Position numbers and translations under genes: made by a program. The notes under the pieces were generated by a model. The model was not told the DNA's origin, made no database searches, and saw only the letters and a list, made by a program, of their open reading frames with translations. A DNA stretch of 64,000 nucleotides from Rhizobacter sp. SG703 (lineage in GTDB: Bacteria; Pseudomonadota; Gammaproteobacteria; Burkholderiales; Burkholderiaceae_C): NCBI RefSeq assembly GCF_012275445.1, contig NZ_JAAZQK010000003.1, forward strand, positions 124,001 through 188,000. Reading direction: 5' to 3'. Below, one piece after another: positions 2,520 through 27,658 of this stretch. Every line of letters starts with the position of its first letter. Positions within the stretch are counted from its first letter, which is position 1.

Positions 2520-3161
2520 ATGAGCCGCACTCGTCCTGTCACCTTCGAAGTGCACCGCAGCCCGCTGCCGAAGCAGCCGGTGCCTGCCGACATTCTGCGC
2601 GCGCCGAGCTTCACCGACCTGTTGCGCCAGCGCCGGTCGTCGAGCGGCGCACGGCCGTTCGGCGAGCGTCTGCGCGCCGATCCAGAGCCGTCATCGTCAC
2701 AGCCGGTCGATGCCGAGTTCGCCATCTCCGCCGAACCCGAACACGCCACCGCAGTCGCCCGCGAACCCGAGCCCGAGCAACACGCCGAGCCCGAATGGGC
2801 CGACGAACTGGTGCCGAGCCCCGAGCTGCTGCAGCCGCTGCTGCACGGCGCCGCCCGCGTGGCCCGCGTCGCCGCGCCGACGCACCCGGTGGTCGCCGCG
2901 ATCGCACAGACCATCGCGCGCTTCTGCAACGAGAGCGCGGTCGACGACAGCGAAGGCTGGCAGGTGCGCATGCCGCTGCGCCCGGACGTGCTGCCCGACA
3001 CCACGCTGGCGCTGTCGCTTTCGTCGTACTGGCTGCAGCTTCGCTTCGAGACCACCGACTCGAGGGCCCGCGACCTACTCTTTGCCCATCGCGACGCCCT
3101 CGCCGCAACGCTCGAAGAATCCCTGAACCGCCGGCGCGATGTCGCCATCTCCATTGACTGA
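2520..3161 (+). CDS. sctP: SctP-type substrate-specificity switch protein (HpaP/HpaC-like)
   Basis: The 213-aa product occupies the slot between hrcV and hrcQ that encodes HpaC in Xanthomonas and HpaP in Ralstonia. The first ~100 residues are proline-, serine- and acid-rich and look disordered. The C-terminal ~100 residues form a compact region ending in LNRRRDVAISID, the kind of ending seen in HpaP proteins. In those systems the protein binds the SctU C-terminal domain and helps switch export to translocators and effectors. ATG 2520 has GAGGTG seven bases upstream. The family diverges quickly, so position carries as much weight as sequence here. Confidence 0.75.
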   Translation: MSRTRPVTFEVHRSPLPKQPVPADILRAPSFTDLLRQRRSSSGARPFGERLRADPEPSSSQPVDAEFAISAEPEHATAVAREPEPEQHAEPEWADELVPSPELLQPLLHGAARVARVAAPTHPVVAAIAQTIARFCNESAVDDSEGWQVRMPLRPDVLPDTTLALSLSSYWLQLRFETTDSRARDLLFAHRDALAATLEESLNRRRDVAISID

Positions 3162-3167
3162 TTCGCC

Positions 3168-4238
3168 ATGACCGCTGCCACCCGCATCGAACCCGTCACG
3201 CCGATCGCCGCCCACCTGGGGGCCGTCGGCGCCGCCGCCGCCAGCGCCTCGCGCCTGCTGCACGACCGCCGCCTCGGCGCGTTGTGGCGCGCGCTGGACC
3301 TGCGGCGTGGTCTCTCGCTCGCCGCGGCGCCGGATGCAAACGACGCCCTCCGCGGTTTCGCAAGCTACGCGCTGGAGCTCGACTGCGACGCTGGCCGCTT
3401 CAGCCTCGCGATCGCCTGCCGCGCCGATGCCGCGTTGTCGCTGGCCGCGGCACCCGACCTGGGGGCGCCGCTGCGCGCGCTGGCCGCCGAGGCGCTGTTC
3501 GGCGAGACCACCGAGCGCCTGTCGCGCCTGGTGCTGCCCGGCGTGCAGGCGGTGGCGCTCGCGCCGCTGCCGGCCGAGCAGGCGCCGCGCACCGGCTGGT
3601 GCAGCCTGCGCCGCGACGGCGCCGAGATCGCACGCGTCGCGGTGCAACAACTTCCCGGGCCGGTGCACGACGCGCTGCGCGGCGCCGCGCGGCCGCACGG
3701 CCAGCGCAGCGCCTGGCGCTCGGTGCTGCGCCTGCCGGGCGCCGTGGCGATCGCGAGCCGCGCGCTGTCGATCGACGTGCTGCGCTCGCTGCGCGTCGGC
3801 GACGTGGTGCTGCTGCCGGCCGCGCTGCAGGCCCTGGAGGGGGCCGCCGCGGCGCTGCGCCTCGGGCCGCGCGGTGCGCGCTGCCTGGCGGCGCCGGGAC
3901 GGATTCAAGGCAATTCATGGACAGTCGAAGGAGGACTTCAGATGTTGGACGATGACCAGGACCTGCTCGCCGAACCCGGCGAACCCGCGGATGCGATCGG
4001 CGAGCTCGAGCTGCCGGTGCGTTTCGAGATCGAGACCGTGTCGGTGCCGCTGGCCGACCTGGAGGCGATCGAGCCCGGCTACGTGATCGAGCTCGCGGTG
4101 CCGGCGGCCGAGGCGCGACTGCGCCTGGTGTCGTGCGGCCAGGTGATCGGCCACGCGGAACTGGTGGCGGTCGGCTCGCGGCTGGGCGCCCGCATCACAC
4201 GCATGGTGGCACGCGATGACGCAGACCACCACGGGTGA
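3168..4238 (+). CDS. sctQ: SctQ (HrcQ/YscQ) cytoplasmic sorting-platform protein
   Basis: The product is 356 aa. The N-terminal ~240 residues are alanine-rich and variable. The last ~85 residues (from about GELELPVRFEIETVSVPLADL to LGARITRMV) form a SpoA (surface presentation of antigens) domain, the C-ring signature shared with FliN/FliM. SctQ builds the cytoplasmic sorting platform with SctK and SctL, both encoded in the minus-strand operon here. An internal ATG at 3941, just upstream of the SpoA domain and preceded by GAAGGAGG, could give a separate short SctQ product, as known for several YscQ/HrcQ proteins. The gene overlaps sctR by 23 bases. Confidence 0.88.
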   Translation: MTAATRIEPVTPIAAHLGAVGAAAASASRLLHDRRLGALWRALDLRRGLSLAAAPDANDALRGFASYALELDCDAGRFSLAIACRADAALSLAAAPDLGAPLRALAAEALFGETTERLSRLVLPGVQAVALAPLPAEQAPRTGWCSLRRDGAEIARVAVQQLPGPVHDALRGAARPHGQRSAWRSVLRLPGAVAIASRALSIDVLRSLRVGDVVLLPAALQALEGAAAALRLGPRGARCLAAPGRIQGNSWTVEGGLQMLDDDQDLLAEPGEPADAIGELELPVRFEIETVSVPLADLEAIEPGYVIELAVPAAEARLRLVSCGQVIGHAELVAVGSRLGARITRMVARDDADHHG

Positions 4239-4872
4239 ACTGCTCCCGCTGCTCGTCATCGCGTTCGCGATCGGCGTGCTGCCCTTCGTCGCGATGATGG
4301 TGACCTCGTACACCAAGATCGTCGTGGTGCTGGGGCTGCTGCGCAACGCGCTCGGCGTGCAGCAGGTGCCGCCCAACATGGTGCTCAACGGCATCGCGAT
4401 CATCGTGTCGGCCTACATCATGGCGCCGCTGGTGATGGATTCGTACGACAAGATGAAGGACCAGGGCTTCGCGCCGTCGAGTGCCGGCCAGATCGGCCAG
4501 ATCCTCGAGGTCGCGAAGGACCCGGTGCGCAAGTTCCTCGACAAGCATGCGCAGGCGCGCGAGAAGGCCTTCTTCCTGAAATCGGCGGCCGCGGTGTGGC
4601 CGCCGGAGCGGGCGAGGGCGCTGAAGGCCGACGACCTGATCGTGCTGGCCCCGGCCTTCACGCTGTCGGAGCTGACGGCGGCCTTCAAGATCGGCTTCCT
4701 GCTGTACCTGGCCTTCGTCGTCGTCGACCTGATCATCGCGAACATCCTGCTCGCGCTCGGCCTGTCGCAGGTGACGCCGACGCAGGTGGCGATCCCGTTC
4801 AAGCTGCTGCTGTTCGTGGTGATGGACGGCTGGTCGACGCTGATCCACGGCCTGGTCCTGACCTACAAGTAG
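4216..4872 (+). CDS. sctR: SctR (HrcR/FliP family) export apparatus protein
   Basis: This 218-aa protein has four strongly hydrophobic segments and the FliP/SctR signature MMVTSYTKIVVVLGLLRNALG near the N-terminus, followed by QQVPPNMVLNG. SctR forms the core of the SctRST export gate in the inner membrane. The length matches the family (about 215-220 aa). The start (ATG 4216) lies inside the end of sctQ, which implies translational coupling; sctS begins 13 bases after the stop. Confidence 0.97.
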   Translation: MTQTTTGELLPLLVIAFAIGVLPFVAMMVTSYTKIVVVLGLLRNALGVQQVPPNMVLNGIAIIVSAYIMAPLVMDSYDKMKDQGFAPSSAGQIGQILEVAKDPVRKFLDKHAQAREKAFFLKSAAAVWPPERARALKADDLIVLAPAFTLSELTAAFKIGFLLYLAFVVVDLIIANILLALGLSQVTPTQVAIPFKLLLFVVMDGWSTLIHGLVLTYK

Positions 4873-4885
4873 CGAGCGAGCCCCC

Positions 4886-5146
4886 ATGGACTACGACAAC
4901 ATCGTTCGACTGACCTCGCAGGCCATGCTGCTGTGCCTGATGGTCTCGCTGCCGGCCGTGCTGGTGGCGGCGCTGGTGGGCCTGCTGGTGTCCTTCGTGC
5001 AGGCGATCACCTCGCTGCAGGACCAGGCCATCTCGCAGGGCGCCAAGCTGATCGCGGTGGTGATCACGCTGGTGGTCGCCGCGCCGTGGGGTGCCTCGAT
5101 GGTGCTCGGCTTCGCCCAGCAGGCGGTACAGGCGGCGCTGCAATGA
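4886..5146 (+). CDS. sctS: SctS (HrcS/FliQ family) export apparatus protein
   Basis: The 86-aa product has two transmembrane hairpin helices and the family motif SLQDQAISQGAKL. SctS is the small FliQ-type subunit of the SctRST gate. Length and position directly after sctR are canonical. The stop overlaps the start of the next gene as ATGA (5143-5146), so the HpaA-like protein is translationally coupled. Confidence 0.96.
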   Translation: MDYDNIVRLTSQAMLLCLMVSLPAVLVAALVGLLVSFVQAITSLQDQAISQGAKLIAVVITLVVAAPWGASMVLGFAQQAVQAALQ

Positions 5147-6000
5147 GCATCACCCGTTCGTTCACCCGGATGGCGCCGGTCGTCGCGCCGCGTGCGGCCG
5201 CGGTCGCCGCCACCGCCACCACCGCGCAGACCGCGCCGCCCGCGACGCCGCAGGCCACGCACCAGCACGGCGGCCACCACGGCCCGCACCGCGCCGGCGG
5301 GCAGGGCCGACACGTCGGCGGCAACCGGCCGGGCGCGCGCCCGAAGCGTTCGACGACCAACAAGGCGCGCAAGAGCCGGCGCCGCGGTGCGAACGGTATC
5401 CAGGGCGATGACGACGATCACGATTTCCACTCGGCGGAGTCGCAGCAGACTGGCACCGAGGCCGTCGGCCTGAAGGACCAGTCGCAGGACTCGGGCGACG
5501 ACCAGGACGAGGGCGGCGGCGAACGCTCGCGCCAGGACAAGCTGGCGCAGGCGCGCAGCCTGTCGGAGAAATCGGATGAACCCGGGCGTGGCGGGTCGCC
5601 GCGCCGGGTGTTCGATTCGAAGATCCCGCTGCAGCGCTGCAAGAAGGGCATGCTGGGCGTCGTGCAGAAGGCCGTCATCGACCGCGAGCTGAACAAGGCG
5701 GCCGACACCGGCAACGGCGCGCTCGCCGCGAGTGCGCTGCGCAAGCTGAACCTGGCGCTGCTCGGCAGCGCCCGGGCCGGCGCGCGGCTCGACAGCGGCG
5801 GGCTGAAGGCGGTGGCCGAGTACCTGGCCGCGAACTACCTGAAGCCGGCGCTGCCCGAAGGCGGCTTCCCGCTGTCGATCAAGATGCTGCACTGGATGCT
5901 GCCGATGAAGCTGTTGCAGCTGCAGGTGCCGCGCACCGAGGAACAGTCCGCGCTGAGCATCGCGAAGATGCTGGTGCAGGCGAGGAGGAACCAGCCATGA
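5143..6000 (+). CDS. HpaA-like T3SS control protein candidate
   Basis: The 285-aa product starts at ATG 5143, overlapping the sctS stop. The N-terminal 60 residues are Ala/Thr/His/Gly-rich. They are followed by a very basic cluster (GARPKRSTTNKARKSRRRG, about residues 64-82), then a long acidic stretch (GDDDDHD, GDDQDEGGGE, residues about 88-130). The C-terminal half is helical and ends in an amphipathic segment. In Xanthomonas the gene after hrcS is hpaA, a secreted control protein with nuclear-localisation-type basic sequences that binds HpaB. Gene position, the basic cluster and an acidic chaperone immediately downstream all fit; overall similarity could not be tested. Function is inferred mainly from synteny. 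Confidence 0.6.
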   Translation: MSITRSFTRMAPVVAPRAAAVAATATTAQTAPPATPQATHQHGGHHGPHRAGGQGRHVGGNRPGARPKRSTTNKARKSRRRGANGIQGDDDDHDFHSAESQQTGTEAVGLKDQSQDSGDDQDEGGGERSRQDKLAQARSLSEKSDEPGRGGSPRRVFDSKIPLQRCKKGMLGVVQKAVIDRELNKAADTGNGALAASALRKLNLALLGSARAGARLDSGGLKAVAEYLAANYLKPALPEGGFPLSIKMLHWMLPMKLLQLQVPRTEEQSALSIAKMLVQARRNQP

Positions 6001-6521
6001 GCGCTGTCATGAACGACGACGAGCTGCCCGAGGGCGCCGAGGGCGATGCACCCGATGGCGCAGACCCGGACCACGAGCGCTACATCGAGCTGCTGACCGC
6101 GCTGTGCGGCGAGCTCGACCTGCCGGACGTGCAGGCGGTGCTGCAGTCGCGGCGGGTCGAGGTCGAGGGCTTCAGCGTGATCGTCGACCACGTGACGAAC
6201 GATCCGCAGGCGATGTACATCCAGTTCGACTACGGCATCACGACCGCCGGACGCACGTTGTCGATCTTCCGGCTGATGCTGGAATCCAACCTGCTGGTCT
6301 ATGCGCAGGACCAGGCGCAGCTCGGCCTCGACCCCGACACCGGCTCGACGCAGCTGATCGTGCGCGTGCCGATGACAGACGACATCGACGGCCCGTGGCT
6401 GATGGACACGCTGACCCACTACGCCGAGCACGGCCGCTACTGGAAGGACCACCTGCTGCAAGCCCCTGACGACATGTTCGAGGCGATTTCCGCGGGCGAC
6501 TACCTCTGGCTGAGGGCCTGA
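5997..6521 (+). CDS. Acidic CesT-type T3SS chaperone (HpaB-like)
   Basis: The product is 174 aa, small and strongly acidic, with a CesT/Tir-like layout: an N-terminal helix (YIELLTALCGELDLPDV), antiparallel strands (EVEGFSVIVDH, MYIQFDYG), then LMLESNLL and a C-terminal helix. Class IB chaperones of this fold hold effectors near-unfolded for delivery to SctN/SctV. HpaB of Xanthomonas is the general effector chaperone and HpaA is its regulator, so the ATGA overlap with the HpaA-like gene supports this reading. Alternative: a dedicated chaperone for a single substrate. Confidence 0.75.
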   Translation: MSAVMNDDELPEGAEGDAPDGADPDHERYIELLTALCGELDLPDVQAVLQSRRVEVEGFSVIVDHVTNDPQAMYIQFDYGITTAGRTLSIFRLMLESNLLVYAQDQAQLGLDPDTGSTQLIVRVPMTDDIDGPWLMDTLTHYAEHGRYWKDHLLQAPDDMFEAISAGDYLWLRA

Positions 6522-6540: not shown

Positions 6541-8397
6541 ATGCCCGACAGCGATCCGCACGACTTCTTCGAAGACCGCCCGACGCTCTGGCCGCACACC
6601 GCGCCGGAGCGGCTGCTGCCGTCGCAGGTCGAGCAGCGGCTGCTGAGGGCGATGGAGCGCGTCGCCGCCGACGGCCCGTATGCGGTCGCGCTGTGCGAGG
6701 AGGCGATCGCGCTGGCGCGCGCCGGCGGCGACGACGGCGAGACGGTGCGCACGCTGTTCCGCGCCGCGACCCTGGTGCTGCAGGCCCGCCGCCCCGACCG
6801 CGCCTACGTGCTGTGCCTCGAAGCGCAGCAGGCCTTCGAGCGCCGCGACGACCGCTGGCGCGCCACCCGCATCCTGCTGCTGCGCGGCCAGTGCTGGCTC
6901 GAGGTCGGCGAGCACGAGCGCGCGATGACGCTGATCGCCGAAGCCACCGAGCGCTTCCGGCTGATGGACCACCGCGCCGACCTGGCGCGCTGCCAGGCCG
7001 CGATGGCGATGGCGCACCGGCTGGGCGGCGACCTCGACAGCGCGATCGCGATGGCCGCGCACGCGGTCGGCACGCCCGGTGCGCCGAACGACCACCACCT
7101 CGACATCAGCCTGCGCCACAACGAAGCGCTGATGCGCCTGGAGCGCGGCCGCCAGCTGGCGCAGCAGGGCGACGTGCAGGGCGCGCAGGCCGAGTACGCG
7201 CGGGCCTCGGCGGTGCTGCCGGATGCGCGCCACATCGAATCCCCGCGCAGCCAGCCCGATGGCGGGCAGGTGCTGCAGAACATCGCCCAGGTCGCGACCG
7301 CGATCGGCGACGACGCGACGGTGCTGCTCGCACTGCGAAGGCTGGCCGACTGGGCGCGCCGCCGCGGCAGCCGGCTGGAGCGCGGCGCCGTGTGGCTGCA
7401 GATGGCCGAGCTGCAGCGCGCGCGCCACCGCAGCCGGGCGGCGGTGGCCTGCGCGCGCGCGGCGGTGCGGCACCTGGTGACGCTGCCGAACGAGCCGCGG
7501 CTGGTGACCGCGCGGCTGCTGCTGGCCGACCTGCTGGAAGACCAGGGCGACTACCCCGGCGCCTACGAGGCCTACGCCGAGGGCTCGCGCGTGGCCGCCG
7601 AGCAGCAGCGCGAGGCGATCGCGCTGCGTGCCGAGATGCTGGCGCTGGACCGCGATGCCGAGCAGGTGCTGCGCAGCACCGAGCAGACGCTGGCGTATGC
7701 GCAGCGGCTGTCGAACGTCGGCCACCTGGTCGCGAGCATCAACCACGAGCTGAACCAGCCGATGGCATCGATCCGGCTCGTCGCCGAGACGGCGCTCGAA
7801 CTGATCGACAGCGGCGAGACCGCCGAGGTGCTGGCCAGCATGCGCTCGATGCTGAAACTGTCGACCCGGCTGACCGACCTGACCGCGCAGCTGGCGGCGT
7901 TCCCGGCCCGTTCGACCGCGCAGGTGCAGCAGCTGAGCCTGCGCCAGGCGGTGCTCGAGGCGCTGGGCATGCTGCGCTCGCGGCTGGGCCAGACGCCGTG
8001 CGAGATCGTGATCGGTTTCGACGATGCGCTGGCGCACGGTTTCGAGGGCCAGTTGGTGCGGGTGATCGCGAACCTGGTCAACAACGCGCTCGACGTGCTG
8101 GAGCCGGTGCCGGCGCGCCGCATCGAATTCGGCTGTGTGGCCGACGGCGAGTTCATCGTGCTGAGCGTGGCCGACAACGGCCCGGGGCTCGCGCCGGCAG
8201 TGCTGGAGCGGCTGTTCCAGCCGTTCTTCTCGACCAAGGCGGCCGGCCGCGGGCTGGGCCTGGGCCTGGCGCTGTCGCGCGACGTGATGCGCGAGATGGG
8301 CGGCGACCTGCTGGCGCGCAACGGCAGCGGCGGCGGCGCGGTCTTCGACGTGCGGCTGCCGCTCGAAGACCCGACGACGGTGCCGGGGACCTTGTAG
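6541..8397 (+). CDS. Soluble TPR-containing histidine kinase (DctB/NtrB-like catalytic half)
   Basis: The product is 618 aa with no membrane segment. Residues about 30-370 are a run of helical pairs with TPR-like spacing. The transmitter follows: the H-box INHELNQPMASIRL (phospho-acceptor His402), N-box NLVNNALDVL, G1 DNGPGLAP, F-box PFFSTK and G2 GLGLGLALS. The HELNQP form of the H-box is typical of DctB-like kinases that partner sigma-54 activators. The gene starts 19 bases after the chaperone gene, so it rides at the end of the sctU operon. The likely partner is the enhancer-binding regulator at 9903-11291. Having a protein-interaction sensor instead of a periplasmic one suggests it senses a cytosolic state, possibly T3SS assembly or chaperone occupancy; that is inference. 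Confidence 0.85.
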   Translation: MPDSDPHDFFEDRPTLWPHTAPERLLPSQVEQRLLRAMERVAADGPYAVALCEEAIALARAGGDDGETVRTLFRAATLVLQARRPDRAYVLCLEAQQAFERRDDRWRATRILLLRGQCWLEVGEHERAMTLIAEATERFRLMDHRADLARCQAAMAMAHRLGGDLDSAIAMAAHAVGTPGAPNDHHLDISLRHNEALMRLERGRQLAQQGDVQGAQAEYARASAVLPDARHIESPRSQPDGGQVLQNIAQVATAIGDDATVLLALRRLADWARRRGSRLERGAVWLQMAELQRARHRSRAAVACARAAVRHLVTLPNEPRLVTARLLLADLLEDQGDYPGAYEAYAEGSRVAAEQQREAIALRAEMLALDRDAEQVLRSTEQTLAYAQRLSNVGHLVASINHELNQPMASIRLVAETALELIDSGETAEVLASMRSMLKLSTRLTDLTAQLAAFPARSTAQVQQLSLRQAVLEALGMLRSRLGQTPCEIVIGFDDALAHGFEGQLVRVIANLVNNALDVLEPVPARRIEFGCVADGEFIVLSVADNGPGLAPAVLERLFQPFFSTKAAGRGLGLGLALSRDVMREMGGDLLARNGSGGGAVFDVRLPLEDPTTVPGTL

Positions 8398-9735: not shown

Positions 9736-9798
9736 ACGGTAGGCTGGCCGGGCGCCGCGGGTTGCGGCATCACGCGAAGCGGCGCATGCGGACGCGAA
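9736..9798 (-). promoter_or_regulatory. PIP/hrpII box promoter for the 8690-9700 gene
   Basis: On the minus strand TTCGC-N15-TTCGC spans bases 9798-9774 (plus-strand CGAA at 9775-9778 and 9795-9798, exactly 16 bases apart). It is followed 33 bases later by TACCGT (9741-9736), which fits the YANNNT -10 rule for these promoters. A transcript from about 9729 would have a ~29-base leader before ATG 9700, which has AAGGA upstream. HrpX (Xanthomonas) and HrpB (Ralstonia) bind this element. Confidence 0.75.
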
Positions 9799-9902: not shown

Positions 9903-11291
9903 ATGCAAGACACCGACGCGGCCGCCAGTGCCGCCACGCCCGCGACGCGCATCCTGGTGATCGAGGACGACGAAGCCTTCCGTGCCAGCGTGAAGCGCGC
10001 GCTGGAGCTGGCCGGCTACCAGGTCAGCCTGTTCGAGGACGCCGAATCGGCGATGGAGCAGATGGCCGCCGTGGCCCCCGCCGCGGTGCTGACCGACCTG
10101 CGGCTGCCGAAGGCCGACGGCCTGTTCGTGCTGCAGCGCACGCGCGAGAAAGACGCCGACCTGCCGGTCGTGCTGATGACCGGCCATGGCGACATCCCGA
10201 CCGCGATCCAGGCGATCCGCTCGGGCGCCTACGATTTCCTCGAGAAGCCGTTCAGCCGCGAGCGGCTGCTGGCCGTGATGCAGCGCGCGGCCGACCAGTA
10301 CCGGCTGGTGCAGGAGAACCGCCAGCTGAAGACGCGGCTGGCCGAGTCGTCCGGGATCGACCAGATCGTGCGCGGCGACGCGGCCCCGGTGCGCGAGCTG
10401 CGCGACCTGATCCTGCGCCTCGCGCCGACCCCGGTCGACGTGCTGATCCACGGCGAGACCGGCACCGGCAAGGAACTGGTCGCGCGCTGCCTGCACGATT
10501 TCGGCCGGCGCAGCGGCAACTTCGTCGCGCTGAACTGCGCGGCCATTCCCGAGAGCCTGTTCGAGAGCGAGCTGTTCGGCCACGAGGCCGGCGCCTTCAC
10601 CGGCGCGGGCAAGCAGCGCATCGGCAAGATCGAGCATGCGAAGGACGGCACGCTGTTCCTCGACGAGATCGAGGCGATGCCGCTGGCGCTGCAGGCCAAG
10701 GTGCTGCGCGTGATCCAGGAGCGCGAGATCGAGCGCCTGGGCAACAACAAGCCGATCCCGGTGAACTTCCGCGTTGTCGCGGCCACCAAGGTGAGCCTCG
10801 AAGACCTCGCGAAGAAGGGCGAGTTCCGGCCCGACCTGTTCTACCGGCTCAACGTGGCATCGCTGAAGATCCCGGCGCTGCGCGACCGGCTGGGCGACAT
10901 CCTCGGGCTGTTCCAGATCTTCCTGCAGCAGGCGAGCCTGCGCTTCCAGATGCCGGTGCCGTCGCTGACGCCGGACCAGCACCAGGCGCTGCTCGCGTCG
11001 CGCTGGCCGGGCAACGTGCGCGAGCTGAAGGCCTGCGCCGAACGGATGATCCTCGGCCTGCCGATCTTCGTCGATGGCGAGCCGACGGCCTCGGCCCCGC
11101 GCTCGTTCGACGAATCGGTCGCGATGATCGAACGCAGCCTGCTCGAAGAAGCGCTGCGCCGCCACGGCGGCTCGGTGAAGGCCGCCTGCGCCGAGCTGTC
11201 GCTGACGCCGGCGACGATGTACCGCAAGCTGAAGGCGCTGGCGGTGGACCCGTCGGCGTACAAGGACCCGAGCACCGATCCTGCCGGCTGA
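9903..11291 (+). CDS. NtrC/DctD-family sigma-54 enhancer-binding response regulator
   Basis: The product is 462 aa from ATG 9903. A receiver domain spans residues about 15-130, with the phospho-acceptor in VLTDLRLPKADG (Asp65) and the Lys of FLEKPFS. The AAA+ domain has Walker A GETGTGKE (from Gly184), the sigma-54 contact loop GAFTGA (230-235), Walker B GTLFLDEIE and an arginine-finger region. The C-terminus is a Fis-type helix-turn-helix (GGSVKAACAELSLTPATMYRKL). GAFTGA is diagnostic for direct sigma-54 activation. The frame is open far upstream, but receiver homology begins just after ATG 9903. Probable partner kinase: 6541-8397. Probable target: the -24/-12 promoter at 11542-11556. Confidence 0.93.
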   Translation: MQDTDAAASAATPATRILVIEDDEAFRASVKRALELAGYQVSLFEDAESAMEQMAAVAPAAVLTDLRLPKADGLFVLQRTREKDADLPVVLMTGHGDIPTAIQAIRSGAYDFLEKPFSRERLLAVMQRAADQYRLVQENRQLKTRLAESSGIDQIVRGDAAPVRELRDLILRLAPTPVDVLIHGETGTGKELVARCLHDFGRRSGNFVALNCAAIPESLFESELFGHEAGAFTGAGKQRIGKIEHAKDGTLFLDEIEAMPLALQAKVLRVIQEREIERLGNNKPIPVNFRVVAATKVSLEDLAKKGEFRPDLFYRLNVASLKIPALRDRLGDILGLFQIFLQQASLRFQMPVPSLTPDQHQALLASRWPGNVRELKACAERMILGLPIFVDGEPTASAPRSFDESVAMIERSLLEEALRRHGGSVKAACAELSLTPATMYRKLKALAVDPSAYKDPSTDPAG

Positions 11292-11487
11292 GCACGATCG
11301 CGCCGCCGACTGACGCGAACCTGACGGCCCCCCAGAGGCCGCTGTCCCGCTGCCGCGCTGCGCTGTCGCAGTCGTGAGAGAGCCGCACCCCCTCGCTTCT
11401 CAATCTTGATTCTCCGCCCGGCCCGGCCGCTGTCGGATGCCTGCGGCACGCCCGTTCGCTTCGGTGGCGCATGACGGCGAATCAAGC

Positions 11488-11519
11488 ACTTGCATGCGAT
11501 TGTGAAACCGCTTGCAAGT
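11488..11519. promoter_or_regulatory. Inverted repeat upstream of the sigma-54 promoter (candidate enhancer site)
   Basis: A perfect 7-base inverted repeat, ACTTGCA (11488-11494) and TGCAAGT (11513-11519), is separated by 18 bases and lies 22 bases upstream of the -24 element. Enhancer-binding proteins of the NtrC family usually bind dyads upstream of the promoter, and the gene for such a protein ends at 11291. This is close to the promoter for an enhancer but within the known range. The rest of the 308-base gap (11292-11487) shows no gene and no clear terminator. Confidence 0.45.
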
Positions 11520-11541
11520 CGCGCAGCCATACATCGCTTCG

Positions 11542-11556
11542 TGGCACATGCCTTGC
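11542..11556 (+). promoter_or_regulatory. Sigma-54 (-24/-12) promoter of the HrpG-like operon
   Basis: TGGCACATGCCTTGC matches the sigma-54 consensus TGGCAC-N5-TTGC at every defined base, with the invariant GG (11543-11544) and GC (11555-11556) ten bases apart. Transcription would start near 11568, leaving a ~32-base leader with GGGGAG before the GTG start at 11600. It is the only clean match I found in an intergenic region of the window. Confidence 0.85.
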
Positions 11557-11599
11557 GGAACAGGCCGGTCAGACATCATTCAACACATAGGGGAGTCTC

Positions 11600-12361
11600 G
11601 TGAACAAAGCAGCCTTGTTGATCGAAGACAAAGACACGCAACTGGTCGTGCGGACCGCACTGGAGTGCGCCGGTTTCCACTGCGAGGTCTATGCGTCCAC
11701 CGGAACGCTGTTGCGCGGCATCAAGCGCGACGACCACGGCCTGATCGTCGTCGACGTCGACGACCCCGCCACCGATTGCGCCGCGCTGGTCGACTGGCGC
11801 CGCAACTGGCTGAACCCCGAAGTGACTTTGGTCGCCCTCGGCCGCACCGACCCGCTGACGGCCGCCCGCGTGCTGAACGCCGGCGTCGACGATTTCGTCG
11901 CGAAGCCGGTGCGCGGTGCCGAGCTGCTGGCGCGCATCGGCGCCGCCGCGCGCCGCCGCCAACCCGCCCCGGCCGAGGCCGGCCTCAGCGTCGCCGGCTG
12001 CAGCATCGACCGCAGCGCCTGCGCGATCGTCTCGCGCTCGCATCGCGTCGGCCTGACCGCCCGCGAACTGGCGCTGGCCCAGCTGCTGTTCGAGAACGCC
12101 GGCCAGCTGGTGACCCGGGCCCGCCTTGCGCAGGACGTCTGGGGCGCCGACGCCGGCATCACCGGCCGCTCGATCGAGCAGCACATCTACCAGTTGCGCC
12201 GCAAGCTCAAGCGCTGTGCCGGCGAAGCGCTCGCGCTGCGCGGCGTCTACGGCAGCGGCTACCGCATCGACGCGGCCGCCGCGCCGCGCTCCGCCAGCGG
12301 CCCCTCTTCCGCGCCGGCCGCCGCCCCCGGGCTGGCGGTGCAGGCCACGCTCCACGCCTAG
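11600..12361 (+). CDS. OmpR-family response regulator (HrpG-like)
   Basis: The 253-aa product starts at GTG 11600 (GGGGAG at 11590-11595). It has a receiver-like domain (residues 1-115) with IVVDVDDPATD around the acceptor position and a conserved Lys in FVAKPVRG. A winged-helix domain (about 130-225) has the OmpR-type LTARELALAQLLFENAG, RSIEQHIYQLRRKL and YGSGYRI segments. The receiver is divergent: DVD replaces the usual LLD acceptor context. HrpG of Xanthomonas and Ralstonia belongs to this family and switches on hrpX/hrpB. HrpG function is inferred from its place inside the T3SS locus. Translation frames in the region overlap heavily, but codon usage and motifs fix this frame. Confidence 0.82.
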   Translation: MNKAALLIEDKDTQLVVRTALECAGFHCEVYASTGTLLRGIKRDDHGLIVVDVDDPATDCAALVDWRRNWLNPEVTLVALGRTDPLTAARVLNAGVDDFVAKPVRGAELLARIGAAARRRQPAPAEAGLSVAGCSIDRSACAIVSRSHRVGLTARELALAQLLFENAGQLVTRARLAQDVWGADAGITGRSIEQHIYQLRRKLKRCAGEALALRGVYGSGYRIDAAAAPRSASGPSSAPAAAPGLAVQATLHA

Positions 12362-12403: not shown

Positions 12404-14341
12404 ATGCGCTCCCACACCCACTCCACCTTCGACGGCCTGCGTCCCGACCGCGTCCCGCTGCCCTGGGGCGACGTGCGAGGGGCTTCGTTGTCCGCGCTGC
12501 TGTCGCTGATCACCACCGTGTCGTACGGCGCGGTGGCGGCCGGCTCGATTTCGTCGATGGGGCCGGGCGTGGTGTCGGCGATGGTGCTGTCGGGGCTGAT
12601 CGCCGCGTCGCTCGGCGCGCTGGTCGCGAGCGCGCTCGGCTCGGTGCCGACGCAGATCTTCTCGCCGCGGGCCTCGGTTGCGGTCGTGATCGCGGCAGCG
12701 GCCGCATCGTTCGCGGCCGGCGAAGGCACGAAGCTGCCGCAGGTGCTCGCGCTGCTGTCGCTGTGCCTGTTCATCGCGATGCTGTTCCAGCTGGCCTTCG
12801 CGGCGCTGCGGCTGGGCGGCCTGATCCGGCTGATCCCGACCTCGGTGACGGCCGGCCTGGTGATCGCACTGGCGCTGCGACTGGTGTGGTCCGAGCTGCC
12901 CGACCTGGTGGCCGCGCCGGACCGCCTGCGGCCGTGGGCGCCGCTGTGCACCGCCATCGGCACCTTCGGCGTGTTCGCGCTGCTGCGCGCCCGCTACGGC
13001 GCAGGCGGTGCGATGCTCGCCGGCCTGGCGGCCGGCCTGCTGATCGCGCTGGTGGTCGACCTCGGCGCGCCGGGTGCGCTGCCGCACCTGCCGGCCATCG
13101 ACCTGGCCGGCGGCCCGCTGCTGCCGGTGTCGCGCCTGGTCGGGCAGTTCGTCGACGGCTGGCCGCCGGGCCGCTGGCTCGACGTGCTGGCCTTCGCCGC
13201 GGTGATCGCGCTGGTCAACTCGGTCGAGACGCTGACCTCGGCGATGCAGATCGAAGACCTCGGCACGCAGCGATTCGATGCCAACCGCGCGCTGATGGCC
13301 GGTGCCCTCGGCTCGCTGGTGTCGCTGCTGGCCGGCGGGCTGCCGGTGGCCGGCGGGACCTCGACCTCGTCGGTGCACGTCAAGGCCGGCGCCAGCTCGC
13401 GCAGTTCGGCGCTCGCGTCGGCGCTGCTGGTGGGCCTGGGCACGCTGGTGTTCGCCTCGCTGATCGTCAAGGTTCCGCTGGCGGTGGTCGCCGCGCTGAT
13501 GCTGTGCGTGGCCGGCGAGATCGCCGTGCCGCCGGTGCGCGAGCTGCTGGCGCAATGGCAGGCCGGCCGGCACGGCATGCGCGGCGAGATCGCGGTGGTC
13601 GCGCTGGTGTGCGTGCTGCTGCTGTCGGCCGACATCCTGGTCGCGGTGGGCGCCGGTGTGGTCGCCGCCTCGGTGCTGGCCTTCGTGCAGATGCGCGACA
13701 GCCTGGTGCGCCGCGAATACAACGCCACCGATGCGATGGCCCCGACGATCGTCGGCGTGCCGATGGGCAAGACCAGCTCGCGCGACGTGCCGGTGATCGA
13801 GATCGGCCAGCCGCTGTTCTTCGCGACCGTCGAGGCCGCGGTGCATGCGGTCGAACGGGTGAACGCCAGCTCCCGCCAGGTGGTGCTCGACCTGACGCGC
13901 AGCGGCGGCCTGGACCTGACCGCGGCGAAGGCGCTGTCGCGCTGCGCCGCGGTGATGCAGCGCGACGATCGCCAGCTGCTGGTGGTCGGCGGCGAGCGCA
14001 TCTCCGAGATGGAATCGCCGTTGCGACCGTGCCTGGTGTTCGGCCACATCGGCGATGCGGTGAACTACTGCACCGATGCGCAAAGCCTGCGCGAGCTCGA
14101 AGCCGAGCGGGCGCGGCGCGATGCGCAGACCCTTCCGCTGGCGGTGATCGACCATGCGACCCGCTTGCTGGCGGAGCACATCGGTCCGATCGCCGACGTG
14201 CTGGTGCGCCGCGCCGCGGCCGCCGTCACCAGCCGCGACCAGTTCTGCAACGTGCTGGCCGGCCAGCTCGACGAGAGCCGTGTGCGCGAGGCCTTCCTCG
14301 CCGGCATGAAGCGCGTCGACATCGTCCGGAGCGCACCGTGA
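12404..14341 (+). CDS. SulP-family transporter with STAS domain and a C-terminal DUF8082-like domain
   Basis: The product is 645 aa. Residues about 20-430 hold 10-12 membrane helices with SulP features (FSPRASVAVVIAAAAAS; LPVAGGTSTSSVHVKAGA). Residues about 455-570 are a STAS domain (VVLDLTRSGGLDLTAAKAL). The last ~55 residues (from about Arg587: LLAEHIGPIADVLVRRAAAA, then TSRDQFCNVLAGQLDE) match a helical domain found twice in the Ser/Thr kinase at 32137-33591. SulP proteins move anions such as sulfate, bicarbonate or dicarboxylates; the substrate here is unknown. There is no clear ribosome site: the start follows a CA-rich tandem repeat (CGTCCACCACA twice). It is in the operon led by the HrpG-like gene. 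Confidence 0.88.
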   Translation: MRSHTHSTFDGLRPDRVPLPWGDVRGASLSALLSLITTVSYGAVAAGSISSMGPGVVSAMVLSGLIAASLGALVASALGSVPTQIFSPRASVAVVIAAAAASFAAGEGTKLPQVLALLSLCLFIAMLFQLAFAALRLGGLIRLIPTSVTAGLVIALALRLVWSELPDLVAAPDRLRPWAPLCTAIGTFGVFALLRARYGAGGAMLAGLAAGLLIALVVDLGAPGALPHLPAIDLAGGPLLPVSRLVGQFVDGWPPGRWLDVLAFAAVIALVNSVETLTSAMQIEDLGTQRFDANRALMAGALGSLVSLLAGGLPVAGGTSTSSVHVKAGASSRSSALASALLVGLGTLVFASLIVKVPLAVVAALMLCVAGEIAVPPVRELLAQWQAGRHGMRGEIAVVALVCVLLLSADILVAVGAGVVAASVLAFVQMRDSLVRREYNATDAMAPTIVGVPMGKTSSRDVPVIEIGQPLFFATVEAAVHAVERVNASSRQVVLDLTRSGGLDLTAAKALSRCAAVMQRDDRQLLVVGGERISEMESPLRPCLVFGHIGDAVNYCTDAQSLRELEAERARRDAQTLPLAVIDHATRLLAEHIGPIADVLVRRAAAAVTSRDQFCNVLAGQLDESRVREAFLAGMKRVDIVRSAP

Positions 14342-14955
14342 GCGCGGCCGCCGTGCAGGCCGGGGCGCGCGAACGCGACGCCTTCGTCTCGATGCTGGCG
14401 CGGCTCGACGCGCAACTCGACCGCGACCTGGCCTCTACCGAGACCGAGACCGAGGCCGACGACGAGCGCACCGACTTCGTGCCGACCTTGCAGATGCTGA
14501 AGCCCGACGAGATCGCCGCATTGACGACGGCCGCGCCGCGCCGCGAGACGACATCGGCCCGGGCCGCGGCGGCCAGGCCGGCGCGTTCGTACGCCCGGCT
14601 GTTGCCGTGGCTGGTGGGCGGCGGGCTGGCGGCCGGTGCGGCGTCGTTCGCGATGTCGTTCAGCGGTTCGCGGCCGGTGGCGCCGCGGATGCCGGAGGTC
14701 GCGACCCTCGTGCCGGTGGCGCCGGTCGTGTCGGCCGCAGCGGTTGCGCCGGCGGCCTCGGCTGTGCAGGTTGCGGCGACCGGACCGGTGCCCGCGCCGG
14801 AGTCTGCTGCGGTGTCCGTTGCCACGCCCGCCGTCACACCGCCCGTCACTCCAACCGCCACTGTCGCGCTGCTGCAGCCGATGCCGGCCCCGTCCATCGA
14901 TTCCTGTCCCCCTGCTCGCCGGGCCCTCGGCCTGTGCGAACTCCCGGCGCCTTGA
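14338..14955 (+). CDS. Single-pass membrane protein with Ala/Pro-rich exported region and C-terminal Cys motif
   Basis: The 205-aa product starts at GTG 14338, overlapping the SulP stop (GTGA). The N-terminal ~85 residues are charged and cytoplasmic-like (LDRDLASTETETEADDE). One membrane segment follows (LLPWLVGGGLAAGAASFAMSF, about 87-107), then a low-complexity Ala/Pro/Val tail. It ends in SIDSCPPARRALGLCELPAP. That two-cysteine ending recurs in the next gene product. No family is recognised. Coupling to SulP suggests an accessory or regulatory partner. Confidence 0.7.
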   Translation: MSAAAVQAGARERDAFVSMLARLDAQLDRDLASTETETEADDERTDFVPTLQMLKPDEIAALTTAAPRRETTSARAAAARPARSYARLLPWLVGGGLAAGAASFAMSFSGSRPVAPRMPEVATLVPVAPVVSAAAVAPAASAVQVAATGPVPAPESAAVSVATPAVTPPVTPTATVALLQPMPAPSIDSCPPARRALGLCELPAP

Positions 14956-14984: not shown

Positions 14985-16052
14985 ATGCGCCAACTTCTTC
15001 TGACCGCTGCCTTGTGCCTGGCCTCGCTGGGCGCCCATGCTGCCGGCGACCGCATCGTCACCGGCTCCGACCGCGGCACCTACATCGAGATCGGCCGCGA
15101 CCTGTCGCGCCTGATCGGCAAACCCGCCGGCCTGCCGCTGGAGGTGCTGCCCTCCAAGGGCTCGGCCGAGAACGTGCGCCGCCTGCGCTCCGAGCCGGGC
15201 GTGCGGCTCGCGCTGGTGCAGTCCGACGTGTACCGCGCCTACCTCGACCAGGCGAATGCCGGCGATGCCGAGGCGGCCCGGCTGATCAAGCCGCTGCGCG
15301 TGGTGATGCCGCTGTACGACGAGGAGATCTACTTCGTCGCGCGCGCCGATTCGCCGCTGCGCTCGATCCATGAGCTGCGCGACAAGCGCATCAACGTCGG
15401 CCCGGTCGGCAGCGGCACCGCATTGACCGCGACCACGCTGTACCGCGCGATGTTCGGCAGCCCGATGCTGGAGCAGAACACCAGCTTCCTGTCGAACGAG
15501 GAGGCGCTGGTGAAGCTCGCGACCGACAAGTCGATCGACGTGGTCGTGATCGTCGCCGGCCAGCCGGCCAAGCTGTTCGCCGACATGAAGTCGGAGGCGC
15601 GCCAGTACATCAAGCTGCTGACGCTGGACCGCGCGGCGCCCGAGACGCAGGCGCTGGACGGCACCTACGTGCCGGCGACGATCCGCGCCACCAGCTACCC
15701 GAACTGGCTGACGCAGGACGCGACCTCGCTGTCGGTCAAGTCGATGCTGGTGACCTACGACTACCAGTCGCCGGATGTGCGCGCCTCGCTGACGCGGTTC
15801 GCGAAGTCGATGTGCAGCAACTTCGAGAAGCTGAGGACCGAAGGCCACGCGAAGTGGCAGGAGGTGAGCCTCGCGCCGCCGCAGCTGCCGAAAGGCTGGT
15901 CGTACTACGCGCCGACGCAGAAGGTGCTGTCGCACTGCGACACCGAGGCCGAGCCGGCGCGCAACGTCGCGTCCGAAGGCAAGGCCCCGGCGGCATCGAG
16001 CTGCTCGCAGAGCCGCGAAGTGCTGGGCCTGTGCCGCGTGGCATCGCGCTGA
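14985..16052 (+). CDS. TAXI-family periplasmic solute-binding protein without TRAP permease genes
   Basis: The 355-aa product has a Sec signal peptide (MRQLLLTAALCLASLGAHAA) and the TAXI fold: ITV/TGSDRGTYIEIGRDLSRLI near the start, then LALVQSDV, NVGPVGSGTALTA and the lobe around VDVVVIVAGQP. The family usually feeds TRAP permeases of the DctQM type; no such permease is encoded nearby and the neighbour is SulP. The C-terminus carries an extra tail with ASSCSQSREVLGLCRVASR, the same two-cysteine motif as the preceding protein. The ribosome site GGAGAA is at 14975-14980. An orphan receptor with a sensory or T3SS-linked role is plausible but unproven. Confidence 0.82.
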   Translation: MRQLLLTAALCLASLGAHAAGDRIVTGSDRGTYIEIGRDLSRLIGKPAGLPLEVLPSKGSAENVRRLRSEPGVRLALVQSDVYRAYLDQANAGDAEAARLIKPLRVVMPLYDEEIYFVARADSPLRSIHELRDKRINVGPVGSGTALTATTLYRAMFGSPMLEQNTSFLSNEEALVKLATDKSIDVVVIVAGQPAKLFADMKSEARQYIKLLTLDRAAPETQALDGTYVPATIRATSYPNWLTQDATSLSVKSMLVTYDYQSPDVRASLTRFAKSMCSNFEKLRTEGHAKWQEVSLAPPQLPKGWSYYAPTQKVLSHCDTEAEPARNVASEGKAPAASSCSQSREVLGLCRVASR

Positions 16053-16861: not shown

Positions 16862-19246
16862 ATGATGCATGCGCGCGCCGGCCTGTGGGTGGCGCTCGGT
16901 TGTTCCTTGTCATGTGCGATTCCATGCGCCGCGCCGGCGCAGGCGCCGCCACCGGTGTCGCCCTCGCCGACCACGCGCTACGAGTACGACGCGATGGGTC
17001 ACGTCACGAAGATCCTGCGTGGCGCGAGTGGCGACAGCACCTCCATCGCCTACGACGGCATCTACCGCATCACGTCGGTCACCGACGCGCGGCAGGGCAC
17101 GATCCGCTTCGAGTACTGGGGCATGACGCCGTACATCAACAAGGTGATCGACCCGCGCGGCCTGGAGACGCTCTATGAGCGCACCGGCCTGGGCCACGTG
17201 ATGAAAATCGTGAGTCCGGACACCGGCACGACGGAGTTCACCTATGTCCCCGGGACCTACCTGGTGCAGACCGCGCTCGACAGCCGCGGGGTGCTGACGC
17301 GCTACACCTATGACGCCGGCAGCGCGTTGACCAGCGTGGTGCGTGCCCTGGGCGGGCGCAGCGAGCTGCCGACGCAGTTCCGGTATGACGAGCAAGGGCC
17401 GGGCTTCACCTACACGATCGGCCGGCTCAGCAGCACGAGCCACGCGGGCGGCGGCAGCCGCTACAGCTACGCGCCGCTCGGCGACCTGCTGACGGACACG
17501 CAGTTTCTCGATGCGGCCGGTGGCGCCAACACAGCGACGGTCACTCACACGGTGCGCTACGGGTATGCCTCCGGTGGCCACGTCAGCAGCATCGTCTATC
17601 CCTCGGGCCACAAGCTGCACATCACGCACCACCGGGGCGACGTGACCGCGATGGCGCTGGCGCCCAACGAAACGGCCGAGCCGTCACCGCTGATCAGCGC
17701 CGTCAGGTGGGCGCCGTTCGGCTTCGGCATCGACGGCTGGCAATGGCACAGGAGCGGCGGACTGATGCCGCACGAGCGCACGTTCGACCTGAGCGGGCGC
17801 ATGACGCGCTATCCGGTCGGCCAGGTGCTGCGCGATGTGCGCTACGACGCGCAGGACCGCATCGCGGCGTTCACGCACCAGCAGCCCGACGGCACGCTGC
17901 AGCCTGCCCTCGACCAGCAGTTCGGCTACGACGAGGTCGACCGGCTCACGAGCGTGGTGACCGCGACGACGAGCTGGTCGATCGCCTACGACCCGAACAG
18001 CAACCGCGCGACCGTGAGCCTGGACGGCATTCCCAGCCGCTACGACACGGCGCCGACGAGCAACCGGCTGAGCGGTGTGACGAACCCGGCGCGCAGCCTG
18101 GCCCATGACGACGCCGGCAACACGACGAGCGACAGCGCGGGTTACACGGCGACCTACGACATGGCCGGCCGACTCGCCACGCTGACGAAGGGCGGCATCA
18201 CGACGACCTACACCTACAACGCGATGGGCCAGCGCATCCGCAAGGTGAGCAACACCGGGCCGCAGAGCACGGTGATCTACGTGTACGACCAAGAGGGCCA
18301 GTTGCTCGGCGAGTACGACCGCGAGGGCCGGGTGATCCGCGAGTACGTGTGGTTGCAAGACGTGCCGATCGCGGTCTTCATGCCGAACCCGGCGGATGCG
18401 AGCGGCCCGCCGCTGGTGTTCCACATCCACGCCGATCACCTGAACGCGCCGCGGGCGGTACTGGACACCGATGGCGTGATCCGCTGGCTGTGGCTGGCCG
18501 AGCCGTTCGGGACGACGGCGCCGGTGGTGGATCAGGGGGGGCACGGGCCGTTCGCGTTCAGCCTGCGCTTCCCGGGGCAGGTGGCGGATGCTGAGAGCGG
18601 GCTGTTCTACAACTGGAATCGGTACTACAACGCCGCGGACGGGCGGTACACGCAGAGCGATCCCATCGGGCTGGCGGGTGGCATCAACACCTACGCGCAT
18701 GCCGGGGGGAATCCGACGCTCTTCACGGATCCGACCGGCGAGTTTTTCTTCATCCCGGCCTTGGTGGGCGGTGGTGTCGGAGCGCTGTCCGATCTGGGGT
18801 TGCAGCTTCTGATGAATGGAGGGCGCATGAAGTGCGTCGACTGGACCCAGGTGGGAATTGCCGGTGCGGTCGGGGCCGTCGGTGGCGCCTGGGCGGGAGG
18901 TGCATTCAGGCATTCGGTGTCGGGAAAGAGCTGGCTCGAAGCCAGCCGTCGATGGCCTGCGGTGCGCGCACGCTACGGGCGCGCCCAGTCCTTGCCCCCG
19001 GGCAAGGATGTGCATCATTGGCTCTTTCCGCAAAATAGCGGGGTTGCGAGAAACTTCCCCGGCATTGCCAACCATCCGATGAACCTCAATCCCACGGTGC
19101 CAAACTCGATCAACAGGGGGCTTTTGAATACGATGGATCCTGTGTCGAGGACTTTGTATGGCTCGCCTGGCTGGGCGAGGGCCGCTGGCGGCTACGCAGG
19201 TGCGGGAGTGGCAATGGATGCAGCAGATGAATGCACCTGCAATTGA
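16862..19246 (+). CDS. Short Rhs/YD-repeat protein with HNH-like C-terminal toxin domain
   Basis: The 794-aa product has a Sec-type leader (MMHARAGLWVALGCSLSC, cleavage likely after APAQA), then YD repeats (YEYDAMGHVTKI, YTYDAGSALT, FGYDEVDRLTSV). The Rhs core end is YTQSDPIGLAGGINTYAHAGGNP...DPTGEF (about residue 625). The variable tip (625-794) contains HHWLFPQNSG and NHPMNLNPTVP, resembling HNH/His-Me-finger nuclease toxins. The two cysteine-rich ends (ECTCN) are odd. At ~800 aa it is short for an Rhs. There is no PAAR or VgrG gene nearby, so secretion by Sec or an unknown route is likelier than type VI; this is inference. The immunity gene overlaps its 3' end. Confidence 0.85.
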   Translation: MMHARAGLWVALGCSLSCAIPCAAPAQAPPPVSPSPTTRYEYDAMGHVTKILRGASGDSTSIAYDGIYRITSVTDARQGTIRFEYWGMTPYINKVIDPRGLETLYERTGLGHVMKIVSPDTGTTEFTYVPGTYLVQTALDSRGVLTRYTYDAGSALTSVVRALGGRSELPTQFRYDEQGPGFTYTIGRLSSTSHAGGGSRYSYAPLGDLLTDTQFLDAAGGANTATVTHTVRYGYASGGHVSSIVYPSGHKLHITHHRGDVTAMALAPNETAEPSPLISAVRWAPFGFGIDGWQWHRSGGLMPHERTFDLSGRMTRYPVGQVLRDVRYDAQDRIAAFTHQQPDGTLQPALDQQFGYDEVDRLTSVVTATTSWSIAYDPNSNRATVSLDGIPSRYDTAPTSNRLSGVTNPARSLAHDDAGNTTSDSAGYTATYDMAGRLATLTKGGITTTYTYNAMGQRIRKVSNTGPQSTVIYVYDQEGQLLGEYDREGRVIREYVWLQDVPIAVFMPNPADASGPPLVFHIHADHLNAPRAVLDTDGVIRWLWLAEPFGTTAPVVDQGGHGPFAFSLRFPGQVADAESGLFYNWNRYYNAADGRYTQSDPIGLAGGINTYAHAGGNPTLFTDPTGEFFFIPALVGGGVGALSDLGLQLLMNGGRMKCVDWTQVGIAGAVGAVGGAWAGGAFRHSVSGKSWLEASRRWPAVRARYGRAQSLPPGKDVHHWLFPQNSGVARNFPGIANHPMNLNPTVPNSINRGLLNTMDPVSRTLYGSPGWARAAGGYAGAGVAMDAADECTCN

Positions 19247-27202: not shown

Positions 27203-27658
27203 TCAGCAGGCCAGGCCCATCGGCGGGAACATCGACACCGGGCCGGCGCCGTGGGCGTCGTTCGAGGCCTTGCGGATCTGTTTGCCGGAGGCGGATTCGA
27301 GCGCATCGACGATGCCGCGTGCCGCGGCATCCGCTGGCAGCGCGATCGCCTCTTCGGCGTAGGTCTCCCACAGGCCGTCCTGCTGCACGAACAGCGTGAA
27401 CGACAGCATCGCCTTGATGACGGCATTGCCGGGGTGCTTGTGCTCGGCGCGTTCCAGCAGCGAGCGGGCTGCGGCGAAATCGCCGCCGTGGATCAGGATG
27501 CGGGCCTCGGCCGCGGCGAGCTGCGGCAGGTTCGGATGCACCGCCGACATCAGCTTCAGCACCGTGGCGACATCGTTGCGCGGCGCGATCTCGCTCGCGA
27601 GCGAATAGACCGCGGCGAACAGATCGGTTTGCCACTTCGGCAGCTTGCGTGCGGGCAT
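27203..27658 (-). CDS. hrpB1: HrpB1/HrpK-family TPR-like T3SS protein
   Basis: The 151-aa product (MPARKLPKWQTDLFAAVYSL) has helical hairpins of TPR type (LPQLAAAEARILIHGGDFAAARSLLERAEHKHPGNAVIKA), typical of the HrpB1/HrpK family found only in Hrp2 systems and related to the YscG co-chaperones. In Xanthomonas HrpB1 is periplasmic and needed for pilus formation. It lies between the filament candidate and sctI, the standard hrpB1-hrpB2 order. Confidence 0.88.
   Translation of the reverse strand: MPARKLPKWQTDLFAAVYSLASEIAPRNDVATVLKLMSAVHPNLPQLAAAEARILIHGGDFAAARSLLERAEHKHPGNAVIKAMLSFTLFVQQDGLWETYAEEAIALPADAAARGIVDALESASGKQIRKASNDAHGAGPVSMFPPMGLAC

Follow-up and report, generated by a model that had tools for sequence, protein, structure and literature searches.

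A putative sigma-54 promoter ahead of an HrpG-like regulator gene at a type III secretion locus of Rhizobacter sp. SG703

Kinase, enhancer-binding protein and sigma-54 element at the HrpG-like gene

The 64 kb stretch of Rhizobacter sp. SG703 DNA analysed here (the window) carries genes of a type III secretion system (T3SS) and, at the end of their sct row, a two-component pair beside a gene for an OmpR-type, HrpG-like regulator. Three plus-strand genes are central: a soluble histidine kinase (6541–8397), an NtrC/DctD-type response regulator that is a candidate enhancer-binding protein (EBP; 9903–11291), and the OmpR-type regulator with a degenerate receiver (11600–12361). Between the last two lies a putative sigma-54 promoter (11542–11556).

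The kinase consists of a tetratricopeptide repeat (TPR) solenoid (about residues 27–375) followed by HisKA and HATPase domains, with its H, N, G1 and G2 boxes intact. It has no membrane segment, its top 19-residue hydropathy being 1.16 versus 3.18 for SctV. In a structure model with a mean pLDDT of 62, the TPR part lies mostly at 65–89, with dips to 56, and the kinase core is poor; the PDB matches of this model are TPR proteins in general, with no ligand indicated. The EBP possesses a canonical, intact receiver, a Sigma54_activat domain with the GAFTGA motif and a Fis-type helix-turn-helix (HTH_8), which is the domain set of an NtrC-type activator; an in-frame ATG at 9876 is also a possible start.

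Pfam assigns Response_reg (7e-8) and Trans_reg_C (2.5e-17) domains to the OmpR-type protein. A tree of 38 rows, 35 of them different, places it with T3SS-linked regulators, in a clade of 18 rows, apart from ordinary OmpR proteins (support 100/99). The clade member of one further genome, G622, lies 59 kb from its sctV; some T3SS genomes gave no row, and the G722 locus (L100), which was entered for the tree, dropped out. The first-pass annotation had claimed a perfect TGGCAC-N5-TTGC element before an HrpG-like gene, a GAFTGA-bearing enhancer-binding response regulator upstream of both, and a DctB-like kinase in the sct operon. The element, the HrpG-like gene and the response regulator are borne out by the motif, tree and domain results. 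The kinase does end the sct row, but the DctB label is rejected, as the sensor is a helical TPR solenoid without a membrane segment and no membrane or periplasmic sensing part is found.

The element TGGCACATGCCTTGC (11542–11556, plus strand) is the sole exact occurrence of TGGCAC-N5-TTGC within the window. Its GG-N10-GC spacing is correct, TGGCAC is followed by A and TTGC by G, and its score is 15.6, against a ceiling of 19.4, under a hand-set matrix of the consensus. It is located 58 bp upstream of the GTG start (11600) of the OmpR-type gene, which is preceded by GGGGAG, and a transcript start is predicted at about 11568. With its core, its setting and its fitting distance from the gene, the element appears to be the sigma-54 promoter of the OmpR-type gene. 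The motif by itself says little, because match counts lie near expectation: 8 one-mismatch matches are observed in the window versus 6.1 expected, and 25 exact matches in the 6.5 Mb genome versus 10 for the reversed pattern. Significance of the site from counts alone is therefore rejected.

Conservation of the element and of the gene set

What lifts the site beyond chance is its recurrence before the orthologous gene in all six genomes that hold orthologs of the TPR kinase, the EBP and the OmpR-type protein (the gene set). The OmpR-type protein was searched in 150 genomes of the family, the EBP in 11 genomes of the genus, SctV in 399 genomes of the family (47 matches), and the kinase in sets of 399 order-level and 274 class-level genomes, each with a match in its own genome only. 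Kinase and OmpR profiles were run on 48 genomes, namely the 47 SctV-positive ones and G539, and the EBP profile on 21 genomes only. The soluble TPR kinase is present in 6 of the 48: G000 (the source of the window), G119 and G547, which are three close Rhizobacter genomes (the trio), and G539, G096 and G580, making about four lineages. Each of the 48 genomes yields some match to the OmpR profile, with the same six at 1e-106 or better and the next at 1e-47; likewise, the EBP profile retrieves the same six of 21 at 1e-266 or better, followed by 1e-155. Kinase matches at 97–99% occur in loci of Rhizobacter sp. Root1238 and OV335. The kinase–EBP–HrpG-like arrangement is found in Rhizobacter and two related genera, and since the genome sets are draws, a wider occurrence is possible. 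The kinase and the OmpR gene lie within a few kb of each other in G000, G119, G547 and G539, and in G539, G096 and G580 the EBP gene comes next after the kinase gene, at a distance of 54–234 bp.

A −24/−12 element scoring at least 14 is located 41–80 bp before the OmpR gene in all six gene-set genomes, versus before 1 of 24 other OmpR-family genes (9 of the HrpG-like clade and 15 outside it). Specifically, the site is TGGCACATGCCTTGC at −58 in G000 and G547, TGGCACATGGCTTGC at −58 in G119, TGGCATGGCGGTTGC at −80 in G539 (TGGCAT replacing TGGCAC), TGGCACAAGCCTTGC at −54 in G580 (−60 with the other start choice) and TGGCACGGCAGTTGC at −41 in G096 (−44 with the other start choice). A Fisher test of 6/6 versus 1/24 gives p = 1e-5, or 2e-4 if the trio is treated as one genome; for the HrpG-like clade by itself, p is 0.0014, or 0.007 with the trio again as one. 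The first comparison used approximate start codons, some rows beginning inside the gene; a repeat scan that began 300 bp upstream of the most distant in-frame start codon left the result unchanged at 6/6 and 1/24. The chance of a score of at least 14.3 in a given 150 bp on one strand of these loci is about 0.003. In line with a sigma-54 promoter, rpoN genes are found in all six genomes, above the family cut-off in three copies each in G000 (C5:324254, C11:186717 and C1:520969), G119, G547 and G539, two in G096 and one in G580.

Across 15 partly overlapping T3SS loci, 22 sigma-54 matches score at least 14, and six of these are the OmpR sites. An antisense match inside sctV recurs in the loci of G539, G096 and G580 (L104 −2720, L089 +14948 and L090 +9039, respectively) and is put down to coding conservation; nothing else among the 22 corresponds to a match before the EBP gene in G580 (L090 −2484).

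The receiver of the OmpR-type protein bears on how its activity would be set. All 13 HrpG-like rows in the alignment have lost at least one among the acidic pair, Asp, Thr and Lys, and the 20 ordinary OmpR rows keep these residues wherever readable, the acidic pair of one row including a Glu. The window protein retains Asp and Lys and has Gly at the position of the switch Thr; among the gene-set proteins, Thr is lost in 6/6, Lys in three of four lineages, and Asp is changed to Glu in G580. The receiver thus does not fit the phosphorylatable kind described for HpaS/HrpG. Because the boxes of the kinase and the receiver of the EBP are intact and the OmpR receiver is degenerate, we infer that phosphate passes from the kinase to the EBP, and control of the OmpR-type protein by its amount is likelier than control by phosphorylation.

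Alternatively, the TPR kinase might signal directly to the OmpR-type protein, the EBP working elsewhere and the sigma-54 site being incidental. This would fit the closeness of the kinase and OmpR genes in four genomes, the Asp and Lys retained in the window protein, and the description of Xanthomonas HpaS/HrpG as a two-component pair (PMC6085468). Against it stand the receiver losses listed above and the canonical EBP receiver, and the conserved sigma-54 site would become a coincidence, so that we regard this route as very improbable.

Directly abutting the −24 element is a plant-inducible-promoter (PIP)-like box, GTCG-N16-TTCG (11518–11541, plus strand, one mismatch), with CATCAT 32 bases on (11574–11579). 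The box is conserved only in the trio and represents a possible second input to the OmpR gene. If it were the real promoter, the OmpR gene would be a target of an HrpB-like activator; its spacing is kept in the trio, and its GTCG form is that found before sctU there. However, no such box (at most one mismatch, −10 at exactly 32) precedes the OmpR gene in G539, G096 and G580, all of which keep the sigma-54 site, and CATCAT is a weak −10 sequence, which makes this explanation improbable. A combination, in which sigma-54/EBP ignition and HrpB/PIP feedback are both real on one overlapping promoter in the trio, would account for the box ending directly before the −24 element in all three genomes, but these are close kin and the one-mismatch box was found after the fact; we consider it slightly less probable still.

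The genes behind the OmpR gene raise another alternative. A SulP-type permease with a STAS domain (12404–14341, plus strand) begins 42 bp beyond the OmpR gene, with which it may be co-transcribed, and is followed by a single-transmembrane-like protein (14340–14955, plus strand) and an NMT1_3 periplasmic receptor (14985–16052, plus strand), which we take to be TAXI-like. This order holds for the trio, the evidence for the short membrane protein coming from the window alone. The OmpR gene of G580 is followed by genes for a similar short protein (by eye) and an NMT1_3 receptor, and the SulP permease was not found in the OmpR loci of G539, G096 and G580. The kinase and the EBP could therefore be a transport regulator of the DctB/DctD kind, with the promoter serving the SulP and NMT1_3 genes and the OmpR gene carried along. 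The next-best EBP relatives, about 50% identical, are in keeping with such a role, as a kinase-domain match adjoins both of those examined (G543 and G580:C33). In G539 and G096, however, the next long open reading frame after the OmpR gene is convergent (lists read by eye), so that the OmpR gene apparently keeps the promoter alone, being the sole constant downstream of the site across the gene-set genomes. Moreover, the sensor is a soluble TPR domain and the kinase gene lies within the sct row in the gene-set genomes. A transport role is thus unlikely, and the reading of the element as a promoter serving the HrpG-like gene is preferred.

Several likenesses among these neighbours were noted by eye. 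An LGLC motif stands near the end of both the 14340–14955 and the 14985–16052 proteins, likewise in G580 (L090:16044–17981). The SulP permease and a Ser/Thr kinase (32137–33591) resemble each other in their C-terminal parts, each of which contains a GPxA.VLV.RAA stretch, as if the two had a domain in common.

The T3SS genes, PIP boxes and HrpB-like activator

The row sctU-V-P-Q-R-S-orf-CesT-kinase lies entirely on the plus strand, orf standing for an uncharacterised gene. It includes sctV (449–2404; TIGR01399 above cut-off), sctP (HpaP, 1.6e-34), sctQ (TIGR02551), sctR and sctS (together 2520–5146), and a gene for a CesT-like T3SS chaperone (5997–6521; Pfam CesT E 0.00058, below the curated cut-off). 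The names sctR, sctS, sctU and sctC are our presumed assignments, the order of the first three being the same in relatives. The CesT-like gene precedes the kinase gene on the same strand in the gene-set loci, with a gap of 19 bp in G000 and of 101–148 bp in G539, G096 and G580. The minus strand carries genes for an HrpB1/HrpK family protein (27203–27658; PF09613, 1.9e-21), a marker of Hrp2-type systems, and a NolX family protein (20081–21748; PF05819, 7.3e-182), presumably the HrpF/NolX translocator. Hrp2-type T3SSs are marked by HpaP, HrpB1/HrpK, NolX, an AraC regulator and PIP boxes, all of which are present here.

The AraC-type protein, with a TPR-like front half, is encoded 10 kb before the window (G000:C3:112421–113980) and is 44% and 38% identical (over 81–84% of its length) to T3SS-locus regulators of Burkholderia stagnalis and Mycetohabitans, respectively, which are annotated as helix-turn-helix proteins; we assume it to be HrpB/HrpX-like. 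Relatives of its gene occur in 6/6 gene-set loci and in several loci without the gene set. Just before the window, on the minus strand, lies a gene for a full-length paralog of the TPR kinase (L108:17415–19166, that is G000:C3:121415–123166), related at 99.8% in hhalign (7e-29) and found beside sctU in all six gene-set genomes. Its N and G1 boxes are gone and HE is changed to HS or HA; it is a probable pseudokinase and may be a partner of the first TPR kinase.

Exact TTCG-N16-TTCG (PIP/hrpII) boxes number nine in 84 kb, versus 2.9 expected (20 random runs, largest 6). Four of them, all on the minus strand, precede genes: that at 9775–9798 precedes the 8690–9700 gene, which lies on the opposite strand between the kinase and the EBP; that at 29693–29716 lies about 370 bp upstream of the chosen start of the 28708–29322 gene; that at 31877–31900 lies about 100 bp before sctC (29726–31777); and that at 42731–42754 precedes the 42107 gene (start at 42655 or 42682; no Pfam match). 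A fifth box (3020–3043, plus strand) falls within the last part of sctP, just ahead of sctQ, and is followed by TACTCT at 32 bases; it recurs at this place in G539, G096 and G618 (L104:3590, L089:14084 (−) and L091:18399 (−)); it is perhaps an internal promoter or just a result of coding-sequence conservation. The other four lie elsewhere. A scan tolerating two mismatches, with the −10 at 28–33, reveals before sctU a one-mismatch box, in GTCG form in the trio, with a TANNNT −10 exactly 32 bases on in 6/6 gene-set genomes. Over 204 kb, both strands counted, there are 25 boxes that have no more than one mismatch together with YANNNT at 32.

Within the T3SS region, two large RHS-like repeat proteins (16862–19246 and 34333–38808) were noticed by eye, and an alanine racemase-like protein and an adjoining 510-residue protein (51690–54934) have relatives near the T3SS of G539 (L104:15436–18590).

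A proposed sigma-54 layer in a loop with the hrp cascade

Taken together, these findings suggest a cascade to which, as a whole and with its feedback, we assign a probability of about two in three. The soluble TPR histidine kinase would phosphorylate the neighbouring NtrC/DctD-type activator, which would bind upstream and drive RNA polymerase–sigma-54 at 11542–11556, resulting in transcription of the HrpG-like gene. The HrpG-like protein, with its degenerate receiver, would act through its amount to raise the HrpB/HrpX-like AraC activator, which in turn would act at PIP boxes, the sctU box among them. Since the kinase gene, and the activator gene in three genomes, is colinear with the sctU row, the sctU box would yield the kinase if the row is one transcript, so that the cascade would feed back on itself. 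Positive feedback is thus implied, and the sigma-54 layer seems to be part of a loop instead of simply standing on top.

A number of observations weigh against this reading. The hand-set sigma-54 matrix is a weakness. The tree contains no named Xanthomonas or Ralstonia HrpG, so that the label HrpG-like rests on T3SS linkage. Three of the six gene-set genomes are close kin, and the other three (G539, G580 and G096) have a further in-frame start codon upstream of the sigma-54 site, which therefore lies outside the OmpR gene only with the chosen start codons. The G539 activator (L104:9062–10420) has GAFAGE instead of GAFTGA, and its promoter has TGGCAT. No shared enhancer site was found, there being no 7-mer common to the four lineages, and an inverted repeat before the target (CACTTGCA..TGCAAG) occurs in the trio only. 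The OmpR gene lies 7 kb from the EBP gene in G096 and 16 kb in G580. In G622, which has no TPR kinase, the HrpG-like gene nevertheless has TGGCACAGGTTGTGCA (score 14.4) 57 bp upstream (L171, minus strand, 10775), the one positive among the 24 comparison genes; perhaps another EBP serves it. G618 has a T3SS, its SctV 80% identical over 435 residues, and no kinase or EBP ortholog, and thus the sigma-54 layer is dispensable or has been gained or lost. Finally, the box scan with up to two mismatches and the −10 at 28–33 lists no PIP box before the HrpB-like gene.

As to what the kinase might sense, one tentative and rather doubtful possibility is that the TPR kinase, with its degenerate paralog as partner, monitors the injectisome for its state of assembly or secretion, the TPR part recognising a T3SS protein at the export gate or a free chaperone, and that the EBP relays this state to sigma-54-dependent transcription of the HrpG-like gene. 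What speaks for such a checkpoint is gene position and the soluble sensor domain. The loop would be self-amplifying, because the operon switched on by the kinase would include the kinase gene itself. The arrangement would then be an injectisome counterpart of FlgS/FlgR, the flagellar checkpoint that is the closest working analogy known to us (PMC7064773). Like FlrB/FlrC and FleS/FleR of polar flagellates, FlgS/FlgR joins a kinase, an NtrC-type activator and sigma-54 to type III export, and FlgS is cytoplasmic (PMC7064773). Unlike these flagellar pairs, the present system concerns an injectisome, has a TPR sensor, and is predicted to act on a single master regulator gene, where the flagellar pairs act on rod and hook genes.

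Known parts appear here in a new combination. With the HrpG–HrpX/HrpB cascade of Xanthomonas and Ralstonia (Hrp2), it shares the T3SS-linked OmpR-type regulator, the TPR-fronted AraC activator, PIP boxes, HpaP, HrpB1 and NolX, and it differs in the sigma-54 promoter and the dedicated EBP with its kinase before the HrpG-like gene. With HrpR/HrpS–HrpL of Pseudomonas syringae (Hrp1), it shares sigma-54 and an EBP igniting a regulator cascade, yet its target is an OmpR-type HrpG-like gene rather than an ECF sigma factor, and its T3SS is of the Hrp2 type. In contrast to HrpR/HrpS, the EBP here has its own receiver.

An influence of the NtrC family on hrpG is already known from XibR of Xanthomonas campestris, a response regulator with GAFTGA whose deletion lowers hrpG and hrpX transcripts (PMC5130282). 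Unlike the EBP here, XibR is an orphan, iron-responsive and global, and the accessible text of that source describes no sigma-54 promoter at hrpG. GluR of Burkholderia glumae likewise stands above hrpB, and hrpB and hrpG transcripts are undetected in a gluR mutant (PMC9452761); it differs in being OmpR-type, T3SS-unlinked and a binder of the hrpB promoter, and sigma-54 is not mentioned in the accessible text. As for sigma-54 itself, an rpoN1 rpoN2 double mutant of X. campestris retains wild-type virulence, and rpoN effects on virulence are cited for X. oryzae, X. citri and Ralstonia (PMC6085468). Among the matches listed from the open-licence literature, no paper dealt with sigma-54 transcription of an hrpG gene, and in the search for the Rhizobacter T3SS no listed paper was named for the genus.

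The first-pass interpretation, a sigma-54 layer on top of an HrpG/HrpB/PIP-box regulon in an arrangement without a standard description, therefore largely holds as a reading of genomes, given the promoter in 6/6 genomes, the co-occurrence of kinase, OmpR-type protein and EBP, and the exact PIP boxes together with the sctU box. Its sigma-54 layer stands, but "on top" gives way to a probable loop; the lack of a description stands for sigma-54 at hrpG among the papers listed, with XibR as a partial precedent; and as to the gene-order conservation that it asked about, the gene set recurs in six genomes, and the OmpR gene lies several kb or more from the EBP gene in two.

Sigma-54/HrpL and HrpG/HrpX-HrpB have been treated as separate regulatory lineages, and here a sigma-54 two-component layer appears to be joined to the HrpG type, in an hrp scheme in which a soluble kinase is made next to the export apparatus. 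This suggests how signals can still control an HrpG-like protein whose receiver is degenerate, namely via its promoter, and it offers a root-associated, non-model but tractable genus in which to ask whether the kinase watches the injectisome as in the polar flagellum.

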